IMG/VR virus record: IMGVR_UViG_3300011114_000269
Coordinates: 1-64,000 of that record
Strand: one strand, 5' to 3'
DNA length: 64,000 nucleotides
DNA from: a virus
The notes beneath the pieces were generated by a model, which was not told the origin of the DNA, did not search any database, and was given only the letters and a program-made list of their open reading frames with translations. A program made the position numbers and the translations under genes. Below are positions 3,993 to 10,484 of this stretch, piece by piece; the first letter of the stretch is position 1, and the number at the start of each line of letters is the position of its first letter.

Positions 3993-4195
3993 TACTGATA
4001 CAAGCAAGTGAAAAAGCATTGTCATTTAATGGTGACTCAAAAACAGCCATGAATTTAATTAATTCTTTGCTAACGGCCTATGAGAGCGCGGGAATGGATA
4101 TGCCCAAGATGCTAAGTGACTTTTTATTTAACATTGAAGTGGCATTACAAAATGCAGGGGTGCTGGACGAATGGTTTGAGGAGATAAAAGCATGA
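3989..4195 (+). CDS. Small early protein, unknown
   Basis: A 68-residue, mostly helical protein (SKTAMNLINSLLTAYESAGMDM). It is translationally coupled on both sides by ATGA overlaps. The ribosome-binding site AGAAGGAGCA lies within the end of the preceding gene. Function unknown. Confidence 0.6.
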   Translation: MILIQASEKALSFNGDSKTAMNLINSLLTAYESAGMDMPKMLSDFLFNIEVALQNAGVLDEWFEEIKA

Positions 4196-5901: not shown

Positions 5902-6741
5902 TCAACCTGTCCGGCTAACCACCGGACTAAATGCTTTCAATAGGCTTTGGGAAAACCTAAACAATCCCATCTCTTTGTGATCGTCATTGGCATCATGGCC
6001 TACTTTCTTACTCATCCAGTAAGGCCACCCAATGTTCTGAGCAGTCCGCTCCCCTGTCCCACTTGCGTCGTTATCTGCAACGACCACGCCCACATCTAAA
6101 TCCCTAGCTATCTTTGCCATGTTGCCAGCACTAAAGCATACATGGATTGTGTACCGCTTGCGCAAGCTTTTCATTGCCGCCTGTACAGACAGAGCCGTGG
6201 CAAACCCCTCACACAATACATTGGTTCCCTTGTTATCAATTACAAAGGTTGAGTGCGAAGTCTTTTGCCCGCTTAAGAATTTCTTTTTCCCGTCTTCGTC
6301 TATCAACTGACAACCAAATACTTTTCCATCAATACGCATTGGAACTACAAGTATCGGGTTTCCATTCTTGCGCCATACATTGCCCTGCTCCTCAGGGAAT
6401 CCCTTGGATGCAAGATACTTGTGCCGTTCGGTATGGCACTGGTGAAGTATCCACGCCGCCCTCGAAGCCGCTTCCCTTTGCTTCTGTTCGATATGGGTTT
6501 CACTAGCCCTAAGCACTTGCAAAAACTTAGCGCGATCTATCTTATCCGCACCCTCAGACTTCCATATGGATACTTCTGAATCAGTAGCATGGTTCTGGAC
6601 AAAGGCAATGTCGCCCATATATTTAACCGCCCCGTTCTTTTTAGTCGGGTGATCCTCTGTTGGATAGCGCCGCCATACGCCAACGGGAGGCAGGGAACCT
6701 ACAAGAATTCCATGTGCCTTGCAATACGTAATTAAATCCAT
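5902..6741 (-). CDS. Toprim-domain DNA primase
   Basis: A 279-residue protein with a Toprim catalytic domain. The conserved Glu is in LCEGFATALS (E178) and the acidic pair in VVADNDASGTG (D223, D225), followed by GHDANDDH (residues 249-254), typical of phage primase-like Toprim proteins. It probably makes RNA primers at the fork with the helicase upstream. The start overlaps the helicase stop (TAATG), so the two are translated together. No zinc-finger or helicase domain is fused, so it is shorter than T7-type primases. It is the last gene of the replication operon. Confidence 0.85.
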   Translation of the reverse strand: MDLITYCKAHGILVGSLPPVGVWRRYPTEDHPTKKNGAVKYMGDIAFVQNHATDSEVSIWKSEGADKIDRAKFLQVLRASETHIEQKQREAASRAAWILHQCHTERHKYLASKGFPEEQGNVWRKNGNPILVVPMRIDGKVFGCQLIDEDGKKKFLSGQKTSHSTFVIDNKGTNVLCEGFATALSVQAAMKSLRKRYTIHVCFSAGNMAKIARDLDVGVVVADNDASGTGERTAQNIGWPYWMSKKVGHDANDDHKEMGLFRFSQSLLKAFSPVVSRTG

Positions 6742-9170
6742 TACATCCTCTTATATGGTGTAGCTTTTTTGCCCTTTAGATAGGCAATCAAACGTGACTT
6801 TACAAACTTCTCAAACCCTGCATCTGGCATTACCGCTACATCTTTAAGACTGCGAGGCCATACGCCAAACTTATCCTTATAGGTATGCGCCGCCCTGCCC
6901 GATGACCACCCGCCATAGGACACTTTATGCTGACACATCGACCAAAACTTTTGCTTATCGTCCATGCTCATGGAGCCCGCTAATTCATGCATCTCCCCAG
7001 CAACGGCAATTACTTTGTTTAGTTTCTCCTTAACAAATCCGCAGTTGTAGCAAACATCGCTATTAAAACTCCATAGTGCTTGGCACTTAGGACACTTCAT
7101 TTGCTCCTTTTCTTTTTCTGTTTTTTCTTTGCGCGACTTCTCTTTTCCATCGTCCAATTCTTCTACGCCGCTTTCAAAGACTTCTTCCCATACTTCTTTG
7201 AACCGCAGGTAGTTTCCCGAATGGCAATTGTGTACTAATAATCCCTCACAAGTGAAGCAATTGTTTGATCCGGCATCGAGTATGTCCCAAACTTCCCTTT
7301 CGGTTTTATGGATGGTTGCTTGTATCTTTCTATTATTTGTTCTGTTGTCATTCCAGCCCAAAAGAAACGTTTCAATGTACTGTCTGAATACAAAATTTCT
7401 GGATGGTCTATTCTGAATTTGTGCATTCGTGCTGTTGATTGATTGCCACGTTTGTTTTGTTGATTCAACTCCACCGATAGCCATCGCAAATTGCCCGCCT
7501 CGTAATGACCATTTGGATTTATCCTGTCTAATTGCATTCGTGACCGCTCCGCTATTGAAGAAAATTTTGGCAACCCAAGATTTTGCATAATCCAAAGCGC
7601 TCCTTCTTTTACTCCAGAGAATCTGAACTCGATTCCACGACCTCCATAAGCCGGATACTGCGCATTTAACGGAGAACAGCAACGCGCCCTCATGCCTTGC
7701 ACCCGGTTGTATAACCACATCGGGTAACTTATATCCGGTTGATTGCACGCCCTGCATCCCTTTGTCCTCCCACCCTCTAGGTTTGACAAAGAAATTAAAT
7801 TTCGGTATCCACATTGAATACATTCGCACAAAACGTGCATAAATCTCCTGTGTTTTGCGCCCAACCAAAAAACTTGTGGATCGTAAATCTTCACTGATCC
7901 GTATTGGAGTCCCACCAAATCCGGTCTGTGTGATTCTGATTTGTTGGACGGCACAATCCCCAAAGGTGCGCCAACCTTTAGTGGTGTGAACAAGATGTCC
8001 GGCTGTTGCTGTGAGCCCTTGGTATGTAATAACTTCTTGGATTCCATTGCAAATTGCTCCTTTATGAGTTACAAAGTTAGTTCCGTCCCATATTTTATGG
8101 TTCAAAGTTACTTTGTCAATTGGCACAAGTCCAGCATCCGTTAAAACCCTGCTACCTTTTGCTAAACACAGCCATAGGGCAAAGTCTTTCTCAGGATAGC
8201 CGCGCATCACCCGACCCATTTGCTGTACATGACTAGACAGGGATTTACTGAACGGCCTAGCCGATACGCCAATCATTACGTCAGGTACATCAAAACCCTT
8301 GGTAAGAATGTCAGTAGCAATTAGCCCGTGGATTTCTGTATCCGGCCTAGAAAAATCTTCAATGGCATCTTTCTTAAACTGGTCATCGTCTTTGTAGCTA
8401 ATGCTGACAAAGTTGTAGCCCTGATCTGCAAACTTGCGGGCTAAGTCTGTCCCATGATCCACCCCTGCGCAGAACACAATAGTCTTGCGAGGCCGACCAA
8501 ATATCTCATGGGTTTTCTTTATCCACTCAGCAACAATGTCGCCCGTGATCTTCATGCCGCGTGACGTAGCTTCCTGCTGGCTCCACTCGCCCGCCACTTT
8601 CTTTGCGCCCTCCATATCAATTTCTTTGGCTATGAATACACGCAGGGGAACAAGTATTTTGTCTGATACCAACTCTTTAGTGGTAACAGTAGACACTACG
8701 TTCTCATAGGATTTACCCATGCCCTTGGTAAATGGCGTAGCAGTAAGGCCAATCACCCTGATATTTGGATTGTTCTTGATGAACTCCATCGTTTTGCTGC
8801 GCGTGGTATGCGCTTCGTCCACAATCAGAAGGTTTAGGTCAGGGAATGAGCCGCGTTTCTCTAGCGTTTGGGCAGAACAAATCTGTATCTTTTCATAGGG
8901 CCGATAGCGCCAGTGGCCCGCCTGTAGAACGCCGTGGTCTATGCCGTATTTCTCTAGCCGCTGACTGGTCTGGTCGCACAGAATGATTCTGTCCAAAACC
9001 ATAGCCGCCTTGTTTCCCTTTTCTTTTGTGGCCTCCAGCAAAGCAATCGCCATCTCTGTCTTACCCGCACCCGTGGGAGCATAAAGAATCTGACTACGCG
9101 CCCCACTTGCAAAGCCTTGGCGTAAAGCTTCCAATGTATCTAGCTGATACTGTCTTAAATTTAAACCCAT
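6741..9170 (-). CDS. Superfamily 2 DEAD/DEAH-type helicase interrupted by intein
   Basis: An 809-residue precursor. The helicase parts are residues 1-334 and 649-809, giving a 495-residue mature protein. Motif I is APTGAGKTE (31-39), motif II VDEAH (117-121), motif III LTATP (142-146) and motif VI QQMGRVMRG (316-324). A CxxC...CxxC zinc site lies at 693-710. Proteins of this ResIII-like type act as phage replication or recombination helicases. The intein sits a few residues after motif VI, before a conserved C-H-S-G-N-Y-L-R-F stretch. It overlaps the primase gene by one base. The palindrome at 9229-9251 lies 60 bases upstream. Confidence 0.9.
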   Translation of the reverse strand: MGLNLRQYQLDTLEALRQGFASGARSQILYAPTGAGKTEMAIALLEATKEKGNKAAMVLDRIILCDQTSQRLEKYGIDHGVLQAGHWRYRPYEKIQICSAQTLEKRGSFPDLNLLIVDEAHTTRSKTMEFIKNNPNIRVIGLTATPFTKGMGKSYENVVSTVTTKELVSDKILVPLRVFIAKEIDMEGAKKVAGEWSQQEATSRGMKITGDIVAEWIKKTHEIFGRPRKTIVFCAGVDHGTDLARKFADQGYNFVSISYKDDDQFKKDAIEDFSRPDTEIHGLIATDILTKGFDVPDVMIGVSARPFSKSLSSHVQQMGRVMRGYPEKDFALWLCLAKGSRVLTDAGLVPIDKVTLNHKIWDGTNFVTHKGAICNGIQEVITYQGLTATAGHLVHTTKGWRTFGDCAVQQIRITQTGFGGTPIRISEDLRSTSFLVGRKTQEIYARFVRMYSMWIPKFNFFVKPRGWEDKGMQGVQSTGYKLPDVVIQPGARHEGALLFSVKCAVSGLWRSWNRVQILWSKRRSALDYAKSWVAKIFFNSGAVTNAIRQDKSKWSLRGGQFAMAIGGVESTKQTWQSINSTNAQIQNRPSRNFVFRQYIETFLLGWNDNRTNNRKIQATIHKTEREVWDILDAGSNNCFTCEGLLVHNCHSGNYLRFKEVWEEVFESGVEELDDGKEKSRKEKTEKEKEQMKCPKCQALWSFNSDVCYNCGFVKEKLNKVIAVAGEMHELAGSMSMDDKQKFWSMCQHKVSYGGWSSGRAAHTYKDKFGVWPRSLKDVAVMPDAGFEKFVKSRLIAYLKGKKATPYKRM
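7235..8047 (-). CDS. HNH homing endonuclease nested in the intein, +1 frame
   Basis: A 270-residue protein encoded wholly inside the intein but one base out of frame. It has an N-terminal PDLVGLQYGSV segment with Cys residues C74, C76, C79, C98 and C101 (zinc ribbon). The HNH core follows, YGGRGI (134-139) and LDRINPNGHYEAGNLRW (173-189), then QQNKRGN and a C-terminal helix-turn-helix-like FFWAGMTTEQIIERY. This order is that of phage HNH homing enzymes. ATG 8047 has AAGGAG 9 bases upstream. The stop lies 8 bases before the intein end. It probably drives homing of the intein into empty helicase alleles. Confidence 0.85.
   Translation of the reverse strand: MESKKLLHTKGSQQQPDILFTPLKVGAPLGIVPSNKSESHRPDLVGLQYGSVKIYDPQVFWLGAKHRRFMHVLCECIQCGYRNLISLSNLEGGRTKGCRACNQPDISYPMWLYNRVQGMRARCCSPLNAQYPAYGGRGIEFRFSGVKEGALWIMQNLGLPKFSSIAERSRMQLDRINPNGHYEAGNLRWLSVELNQQNKRGNQSTARMHKFRIDHPEILYSDSTLKRFFWAGMTTEQIIERYKQPSIKPKGKFGTYSMPDQTIASLVRDY
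8057..8062 (-). promoter_or_regulatory. Internal ribosome-binding site for nested HNH gene
   Basis: AAGGAG on the minus strand lies exactly 9 bases before the ATG at 8047. In the helicase frame the same bases encode part of T-H-K-G-A-I-C. A consensus site in this place supports separate translation of the nested gene. Confidence 0.75.
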
Positions 9171-9228
9171 GTTCTTCCTCTGTCAGCATACAGGCCCGCT
9201 GACTTGGGCGCTTATCAAAATTAAAAAC

Positions 9229-9251
9229 ATTCCGAGTGGTAACGTTACCAC
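9229..9251. promoter_or_regulatory. Palindromic element, copy 1 (core only)
   Basis: It contains the perfect 16-base palindrome GTGGTAACGTTACCAC preceded by ATTCCGA. The same 23 bases occur at 22211, and 21 of them (all but the terminal AC) occur inverted at 62871. It lies in the only sizeable gap of the replication operon, between the PP-loop gene stop (9253) and the helicase start (9170). It is probably a protein-binding site. Confidence 0.8.
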
Positions 9252-9252
9252 C

Positions 9253-10116
9253 CTAGTCGCCGCAGAAACAAGAGATTCCCTCTTCATTGGGGTCAAAAAT
9301 ATCACGCTGCGCCGCCGTATATTTGGCTAACTCTGCATAGCTAGGCCGATCTTTTCTAAACTTAGAGCTGTCTTTCTGCGCCCCTTCTTTGCCTTCCGCA
9401 TTCTTTTCCATTTGCGCCCACCATACGGCACGCTCTGGATTTTCTGCTATCAAAGACGCTATCTGCTGCAATGGTTTTAAAAAACATAAGTCGCAATTGC
9501 CGTGCATGGTTACGCCGTTCATATTGGGCAACCCCAAGTCAAACGATTGCTTGCGCCAAAAGTCACCGACCTCTTCTTTGGTAACGCCAGCATCTGCCAG
9601 CGGGACTAATCTGCATACGCCGGATCTACCATCGTCAGGGTTAGCCCTAATTTTTGCAGCACGCCTTTGCTCATCGGCCCTGATGCCAATGAAATTATCG
9701 TACTCCACCCAACCCAAGCTTCTGCAATAGCGATAGAAGGGATCAATCTTTAGCCGGACTGTGCAAATTCTCATTACTGGATTAGGTAAGAATGGTTTGC
9801 CAACCGCCTCAATCATTTCCTCAAATGGTTCGCCGTTCCTAGCAGCAGTTTCAAACGTCACTACTTTGTACCGCTGGTGCAAATCCTCATGGGTTGCGTA
9901 CTCCAACCAGACCACGGGAACATTCCAATTAACGGAGCAGTCATGTACAAACTGCAACGTTTCCGGCATTTCTTTGCCAGTGTTTGCAAATAGAACGACT
10001 GTTTCATTTGGCAGCTTGCCACCATGCGCTTGCAATACTTTCCAAAGCATATACGCAGACGTTCTGCCGCCGCTAAAAGAAATACAAGTTGGCCCTGTAA
10101 TCAGGAAAGGATTCAT
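9253..10116 (-). CDS. PP-loop ATPase, PAPS reductase-like
   Basis: A 287-residue member of the PAPS reductase/adenine nucleotide alpha-hydrolase family (COG0175-type). The nucleotide-binding PP-loop is SFSGGRTS (13-20). Later come VLFANTGKE, RICTVRLK, a GNCDLCFLKP cysteine pair, and a terminal SCFCGD. Four Cys could hold an iron-sulfur cluster, as in some DNA-phosphorothioation or thiolation enzymes. No other dnd or modification gene is present, so the substrate is unknown. It starts in an ATGA overlap with the YbcO-like gene. Phages often carry such genes in replication operons without a proven role. Confidence 0.8.
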   Translation of the reverse strand: MNPFLITGPTCISFSGGRTSAYMLWKVLQAHGGKLPNETVVLFANTGKEMPETLQFVHDCSVNWNVPVVWLEYATHEDLHQRYKVVTFETAARNGEPFEEMIEAVGKPFLPNPVMRICTVRLKIDPFYRYCRSLGWVEYDNFIGIRADEQRRAAKIRANPDDGRSGVCRLVPLADAGVTKEEVGDFWRKQSFDLGLPNMNGVTMHGNCDLCFLKPLQQIASLIAENPERAVWWAQMEKNAEGKEGAQKDSSKFRKDRPSYAELAKYTAAQRDIFDPNEEGISCFCGD

Positions 10117-10484
10117 TTAAATTGCTCCAATGCCCACCGAGCAGCTTCTACTTCTTTTGGTTTTGCCATGATGTTTTCCGCTATCTCTTTCCATGCTTTA
10201 AGTTGCCGCTGATGACCGACTAGAAATGCCTGTTCCCGCTCTTCCCGTGACGCATCACCCTGATCTAGCCATGTATGACATACGACACAAGCCCATACGG
10301 AATAGGTATCGTCAGCCTTCAATGACTTCCCTTTGCCGTGAGATGCGCTATTGGAATGTGCCGCTACTGTGGTACTGCCCTCTATCCCTCGACAGAACGG
10401 AGTAACCACAAGTAGGCAGCGCTTCCCATTAGCCATAGCCAACAAAGCAGGGTTACGTTTTGCTGGAACCTTGGCGTAGCTCAT
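10113..10484 (-). CDS. YbcO/DUF1364-like nuclease
   Basis: A 123-residue protein beginning MSYAKVPAKRNPALL. The pattern C-L-L-V-V-T-P-F-C, then TTVAAHSNSASHGKGKSLKADD and WACVVCHTWLDQG, is characteristic of the DUF1364 family (E. coli YbcO, a prophage DNase with an HNH-like zinc fold). Family members sit in phage recombination regions, as here. The start at 10484 overlaps the stop of the small upstream gene (ATGA). A longer reading from 10529 lacks a ribosome-binding site and would overlap that gene fully. Confidence 0.75.
   Translation of the reverse strand: MSYAKVPAKRNPALLAMANGKRCLLVVTPFCRGIEGSTTVAAHSNSASHGKGKSLKADDTYSVWACVVCHTWLDQGDASREEREQAFLVGHQRQLKAWKEIAENIMAKPKEVEAARWALEQFK

Follow-up and report, generated by a model that had tools for sequence, protein, structure and literature searches.

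An HNH endonuclease gene nested out of frame in the linker of a phage helicase intein and of related inteins

We analyzed a 64,000-nucleotide stretch of viral DNA (hereafter the window; positions 1 to 64,000 of the IMG/VR record IMGVR_UViG_3300011114_000269), in which an SF2 helicase gene is interrupted by an intein whose DNA also carries, in the +1 frame, a gene for an HNH endonuclease. The element is very probably a bipartite homing intein written in two frames ('overprinted'), in which the splicing frame is intact and the endonuclease, initiated separately, is laid over the linker. Both open reading frames (ORFs), opposite and complementary constraint on them, avoidance of stop codons, initiation signals, precise empty insertion sites and recurrence of the layout in at least 140 further inteins of viruses and prophages are observed. 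The features are summarized in Table 1.

Table 1. Helicase gene, intein and nested HNH gene in the window
Feature	Position	Strand	Remarks
Host gene, SF2 helicase (ResIII/RadD-like, phrog_16)	6741..9170	-	809 amino acids with the intein
N-extein	8169..9170	-	Helicase residues 1-334, C-terminal ...FALWL
Intein	7227..8168	-	314 amino acids, C1 to H313-N314, +1 Cys; helicase residues 335-648
N-terminal HINT half, blocks A and B	7899..8168	-	Intein residues 1-90; AlphaFold2 predicted local distance difference test (pLDDT) ~93-97 up to residue 80
Intein-frame linker	7317..7898	-	Residues ~91-284; no stop; mostly predicted disordered (pLDDT <50); DNA shared with the HNH gene
C-terminal HINT half, blocks F and G	7227..7316	-	Residues 285-314; pLDDT ~95
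C-extein	6741..7226	-	First residues CHSGNYLRF; DHSGNYLRF in empty alleles
Nested HNH endonuclease gene	7235..8047	-	270 codons; offset by +1 from the intein frame; 3' end of the stop codon 8 nucleotides short of the intein end
Shine-Dalgarno-like AAGGAG	8057..8062	-	9 nucleotides 5' of the HNH ATG; dual-coded within the block A-B interval
Zinc-ribbon-type Cys of HNH	7745..7822	-	C76, C79, C98, C101; nearly invariant
HNH core motif	7481..7531	-	LDRINPNGHYEAGNLRW; D174, R175, Y182, N186, R188 nearly invariant

Two reading frames in the helicase intein

The intein frame has the residues expected of a class 1 cis-splicing intein (Cys or Ser as residue 1, TxxH in block B, a terminal His-Asn, and Cys, Ser or Thr at +1), namely C1, TATAGH in block B with T55 and H58 (T389 and H392 of the helicase), H313-N314 and the +1 Cys. 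The nested product has two CxxC pairs and the core DR...Y...N.R, that is, the conserved core and the zinc Cys by which HNH endonucleases are recognized by homology, and it matched phage HNH endonucleases (phrog_374, E=1.6e-22); searches of Pfam and NCBIfam with this product gave no match. The first-pass annotation of the window had assigned blocks A, B, F and G with the splicing residues to the helicase frame, and to the +1 frame a 270-residue HNH enzyme with zinc-ribbon Cys and core, preceded by AAGGAG 9 bases before its ATG and stopping 8 bases before the intein end; every coordinate checked holds, and the nested ORF, its AAGGAG and its stop codon were found where that annotation had put them.

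The same annotation had noted that the intein frame stays open across the HNH codons. In fact, no intein-frame stop occurs across the HNH gene, whereas synonymous resampling of the HNH codons with phage codon usage (n=20,000) gave a mean of 23 stops and a minimum of 7; when the synonymous codons already present in the gene were shuffled instead, the mean was 14 and the minimum 4. Since the observed zero lies below both minima, chance is excluded for the window copy. Conversely, shuffling of the intein-frame codons disrupted the HNH frame in every run (mean 8.9 stops). Compensating indels, which could have created the two frames artificially, were looked for in relatives and none was found: three IMG/VR contigs with the same helicase as the window (L001, whose HNH is 80% identical, L098 and L101) share the length and the frames of the window copy without any indel, which excludes this kind of assembly error.

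Signals for separate initiation of the HNH protein were found around block B of the relatives described below. ATG codons with a Shine-Dalgarno (SD) 5-mer were strongly enriched in the HNH frame (80 of 342) over the other two frames (5 of 265; nominal Fisher p 2e-16). The commonest HNH start is at intein nucleotide 146, and the SD sequence and the ATG lie within the conserved block B motif itself, because KEV.xY(D/E) is spelt AAGGAGGTx...TATGA. The Glu codon of this motif is GAG, which completes the SD sequence, in 53 of 65 cases, compared with 46% across the exteins. Upstream of this point, the HNH frame is closed by stop codons until past intein codon 30 in 109 of 144 members, usually to within a few codons 5' of the ATG (median opening codon, 46).

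Structure prediction with AlphaFold2 was consistent with this division of the DNA. In the intein frame, residues 1-80 and 290-314 had a pLDDT of about 95, most of residues 94-280 had values under 50, and the N- and C-terminal halves together formed a HINT fold in the predicted model, for which the best Foldseek matches were mini-inteins (DnaX, DnaB and RecA; the top match, 7cfv, at E=6e-4 and the others at 1e-3 or above). In the HNH frame, residues 1-30, whose DNA lies over block B, had values below 50, and from about residue 40 most blocks had values of 71-95. In these models, the ordered parts of the two proteins thus sit on almost complementary stretches of one DNA.

Relatives of the intein and selection in both frames

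Relatives were gathered from IMG/VR, GTDB genomes and phage records, and sorted by profiles of the intein N block, the intein C block and the HNH core. The window intein alone, used for a pattern scan in the intein frame, gave no matches because the linker is not conserved, and an alignment was needed instead. Those whose match to HNH was long were kept, 147 distinct sequences in all. The HNH frame is offset from the intein frame by +1, as in the window, in 134 of them and by +2 in the other 13; no intact copy has it in frame, an absence that holds for this intein family and not for inteins generally, since the searches were seeded with profiles of such inteins. The sole case with both parts in the same ORF, L003, was rejected as an in-frame HNH, since a single base has been deleted from it, in a contig of 6 kb, and both frames are broken as a result.

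The host genes, among those tested, encode family-A DNA polymerases, SF2 helicases and, in L019, a DnaB-like helicase, with several distinct insertion sites. DNA polymerase carriers include Gardnerella phage vB_Gva_AB1 (L004), Streptococcus phages Javan113 and Javan255 (L005, L006), Caulobacter phage GB2A (L014), Shewanella phage SFCi1 (L013) and Pseudomonas phage MR14 (L007, with the +2 offset), and copies also occur within the genomes of Peptoniphilus, Anaerococcus and Gardnerella. C1 and the TxxH of block B are present in all 162 inteins tallied, most of which end in HN or SN, and Cys or Ser follows at +1 in 155 of them. Some polymerase genes have two inteins at different sites: in L166, also L167, and in L169 both are of the nested type, and in L239 the second is a mini-intein.

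Selection was examined in both frames. No stop codon interrupts the intein frame in any of the 147 HNH cores, against 1,182.7 + 57.4 (about 1,240) expected from synonymous resampling, and the third frame contains 1,351. As controls, 61 HNH genes without an associated intein N block had 1,050 stops in the corresponding frame against 1,057 expected; the openness of the intein frame is thus not explained by the HNH protein sequence itself. The single control that seemed open, L024, is a recombinant without the intein N block.

The substitution patterns of the two frames showed opposite and complementary constraint. Among 81 close pairs, substitutions at intein codon positions 1/2/3 were 0.22/0.11/0.46 in the block A zone and 0.11/0.06/0.22 in the block F/G zone, and changed to 0.44/0.21/0.15 in the HNH core, where intein position 1 is HNH position 3. 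Because variation in the core concentrates at HNH position 3, the HNH frame is under purifying selection. In the +2 group, substitutions move to intein position 2, which is its HNH position 3, as predicted, although only one pair was usable. In each of the 81 pairs, amino acid identity was higher in the HNH frame (mean 0.76) than in the intein frame (mean 0.50). The switch in codon position and the identity pattern together indicate that the ends of the DNA encode a conserved splicing protein and the middle a conserved endonuclease, over which the splicing protein need only stay open. The view of the first-pass annotation that the HNH is a separate, dual-coded gene is thereby supported by two-frame selection, together with the relatives of the same offset, the precise empty sites and the structure prediction.

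In the HNH tree, the +1 group at the polA2 site (14 sequences, support 0.99) is nested among free-standing HNHs, apart from the large +1 group, and twelve of the +2 sequences form a separate clade, with one further +2 sequence as an outlier. The intein tree places the +2 and polA2 groups near each other, apart from the remaining 120. These placements, in FastTree trees of short sequences whose deep nodes are weak, imply that HNH genes were captured by inteins at least twice, perhaps three times, each time out of frame. Judged from the sequences, the arrangement is not peculiar to the window phage and constitutes a widespread class with at least two HNH captures and two frame offsets. It probably represents an unrecognised class of homing intein, in which the endonuclease is always overprinted out of frame on the linker and came from free-standing HNH genes, the ribosome-binding site and the start are dual-coded in block B (Lys-Glu-Val = AAGGAGGT; Tyr-Asp/Glu = TATGA), and the splicing and homing proteins would be made independently.

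Several members have lost parts of the HNH gene with the intein frame still open. The HNH gene is largely deleted in L008 and L223, and the series ends in mini-inteins of 110-142 amino acids (L009, L016, L206 and L211). In Streptococcus phage PhiSdyV1524 (L011), the HNH frame has a premature stop at position 2993 and the intein frame is intact, a state that would be an early stage of endonuclease decay. In L237 (Eubacterium plexicaudatum), the intein frame is broken by one base before the HNH start, near the HNH ribosome-binding site (~4120-4140), either as a lesion or by sequencing error.

Insertion sites, mechanism and alternative explanations

A scan with the spliced helicase sequence showed that the insertion is precise: all 80 helicase relatives recovered are uninterrupted at the site, the nearest being L247 with 97% protein identity. 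The readable empty alleles are mostly LWL/VWL-D-H-S/A-GN; in the occupied allele, Cys stands where these have Asp. The empty alleles of L294, L308 and L317 already have Cys at +1 (VWLCHSGN), and are possibly scars of past precise intein loss. In L102, L176 and L180, related nested inteins occupy a site in this helicase motif that is displaced downstream by two codons (WLDH|SGN, compared with WL|DHSGN at 8168/8169 of the window), which suggests a shift of the target site. A test for co-conversion around the insertion gave a mixed result: identity to the empty allele L247 is slightly lower at and downstream of the site (0.85-0.92) than upstream (mostly 0.9-0.98), but L250 lacks this pattern.

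These observations suggest the following mechanism. The host frame would be translated as helicase-N, HINT-N, a disordered linker of about 190 residues, HINT-C and helicase-C, and the HINT halves would fold together so that the intein is spliced out. A second ribosome entry at the internal AAGGAG and ATG just 5' of block B would yield a free 270-residue HNH protein from the +1 frame, which would cut helicase alleles that lack the intein, at the conserved codons for ALWLDHSGN. Repair would then copy the intein with its endonuclease, and co-conversion of the flank would supply the +1 Cys required for splicing, replacing the Asp. Amino acid constraint would act on the HNH frame in the HNH core, where the host frame is merely kept free of stops, with the roles reversed in the splicing blocks.

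Several points weigh against this interpretation. Splicing, translation of the HNH gene, DNA cleavage and its specificity, and transfer by homing are what we infer from the sequences. Block F of the window reads DAGSNNCF, with S301, N302, N303 and C304 in place of PHNR in the DAGPHNRF of relatives, and because of this difference the window copy may splice poorly; the term 'splicing-competent' used in the first-pass annotation is an inference. The block F His is missing in 63 of 154 inteins of the family. The HNH core reads DR where canonical HNH reads DH, and searches of solved structures in the PDB by sequence, Foldseek and VIA-align with the HNH model gave no significant HNH chain. The SD matches are weak in part of the family, chiefly in the +2 group. 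In addition, the related sequences are not independent, and the Fisher p-value is therefore nominal.

The degraded look of the window block F would also fit an insertion that is no longer spliced, with the HNH as its sole functional part and a host frame that tolerates the long insert, a situation suggested for the ShiLan domain, which shows that such inserts are possible (PMC11855218). We regard this as improbable, since the splicing residues are retained across the family as tallied above, the HINT halves fold confidently in the predictions, and the insertions interrupt conserved motifs of the helicases and polymerases, which should lose their activity if the insert stayed in place. Production of the HNH by ribosomal frameshifting out of the intein frame, as a fusion with the intein N part, would draw on the single mRNA that holds both frames and would suit several +2 members with only weak SD matches. 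It is quite improbable: in most members the HNH frame is interrupted by a stop shortly before the ATG, which argues against frameshifting from block A, the ATG and SD enrichment is confined to the HNH frame, and the block B Glu is biased to the GAG that completes the SD sequence.

Members with a broken or deleted HNH (L011, L008, L187 and L230) could point to a passenger or decaying remnant, with homing driven by another endonuclease. However, the HNH frame is under strong purifying selection, its zinc-ribbon and HNH residues are nearly invariant, and no further endonuclease domain was found in the intein, which makes this explanation very improbable. Long antisense or alternative ORFs do arise by chance, and L003 shows that such contigs can contain indels. 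An origin of the second open frame by chance or assembly artefact is nevertheless already refuted for practical purposes, as none of the 20,000 resamplings was open, the 147 distinct sequences are alike, and relatives have the same gap-free length. A self-splicing RNA intron was rejected, as Rfam intron families gave no match at E<=1 over positions 6000-10200.

Relation to known elements

In textbook homing inteins, the endonuclease is an in-frame domain, for example of the LAGLIDADG type, and an intein with an HNH-type in-frame endonuclease was reportedly described by Dalgaard et al. in 1997. The overprinted inteins resemble these elements in that a homing-type endonuclease lies between blocks B and F of a HINT domain, conserved motifs are the sites of insertion, and empty alleles occur, but differ in that the endonuclease has an ORF of its own, offset by +1 or +2 in each of the 147 intact cases, and the linker need only be open; splicing and nuclease are thus physically uncoupled. 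Dassa et al. in 2009 are said to have reported split inteins whose two halves are separated by a free-standing endonuclease gene; in these, the host gene is broken and trans-splicing is needed. A separate endonuclease gene between the N and C intein halves is common to both, whereas the window helicase ORF is continuous and predicted to splice in cis.

A member of the arrangement was already present, under other names, in Hamiltonella phage APSE-1 (AF157835), whose DNA polymerase P45 contains an intein. P46, which the depositors annotated as a separate coding sequence inside P45 (L012, 2931-3353), is the HNH of this intein, in the +1 frame. The record names neither intein nor HNH for P45 and P46; host gene and insertion site differ from those of the window, and its HNH belongs to a separate clade among free-standing HNHs.

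The closest published case in layout is the ShiLan domain (Arsenault, Gosselin and Gogarten 2025, PMC11855218; noted also in phage Applejack, PMC12613952), in which the HNH lies out of frame and no intein is present. As in the window element, the HNH gene uses an alternative frame and the insertion that carries it is free of stops in the host frame; a patchy distribution and phage hosts are also shared. The ShiLan domain is without splicing motifs, intein fold or detectable ribosome-binding site and is thought to be retained in its methylase (PMC11855218), whereas the window family has HINT blocks with catalytic residues and a predicted HINT fold, SD and ATG signals, and helicases and DNA polymerases as hosts. 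In the open-access literature searched, we found no description of an out-of-frame endonuclease inside inteins, ShiLan being the one closely similar idea, and the double-coded layout is apparently undescribed before for inteins.

This large natural family separates splicing and nuclease activities and yet keeps them genetically inseparable, because a stop in the linker would kill the replication gene and a frameshift would kill both proteins. It provides a long same-strand overlap with readable, reciprocal selection, may account for polymerase and helicase inteins annotated as endonuclease-free, and serves as a natural model both of engineered gene entanglement and of the gain and loss of endonucleases by mobile elements.

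As for other genes in the window, a family-A DNA polymerase was looked for in its own record and not found. The product downstream of the helicase (5902-6741, minus strand) looks Toprim/primase-like by eye, with the motif CEGFATALSVQAA, and helicase and primase may accordingly sit adjacent in the window.
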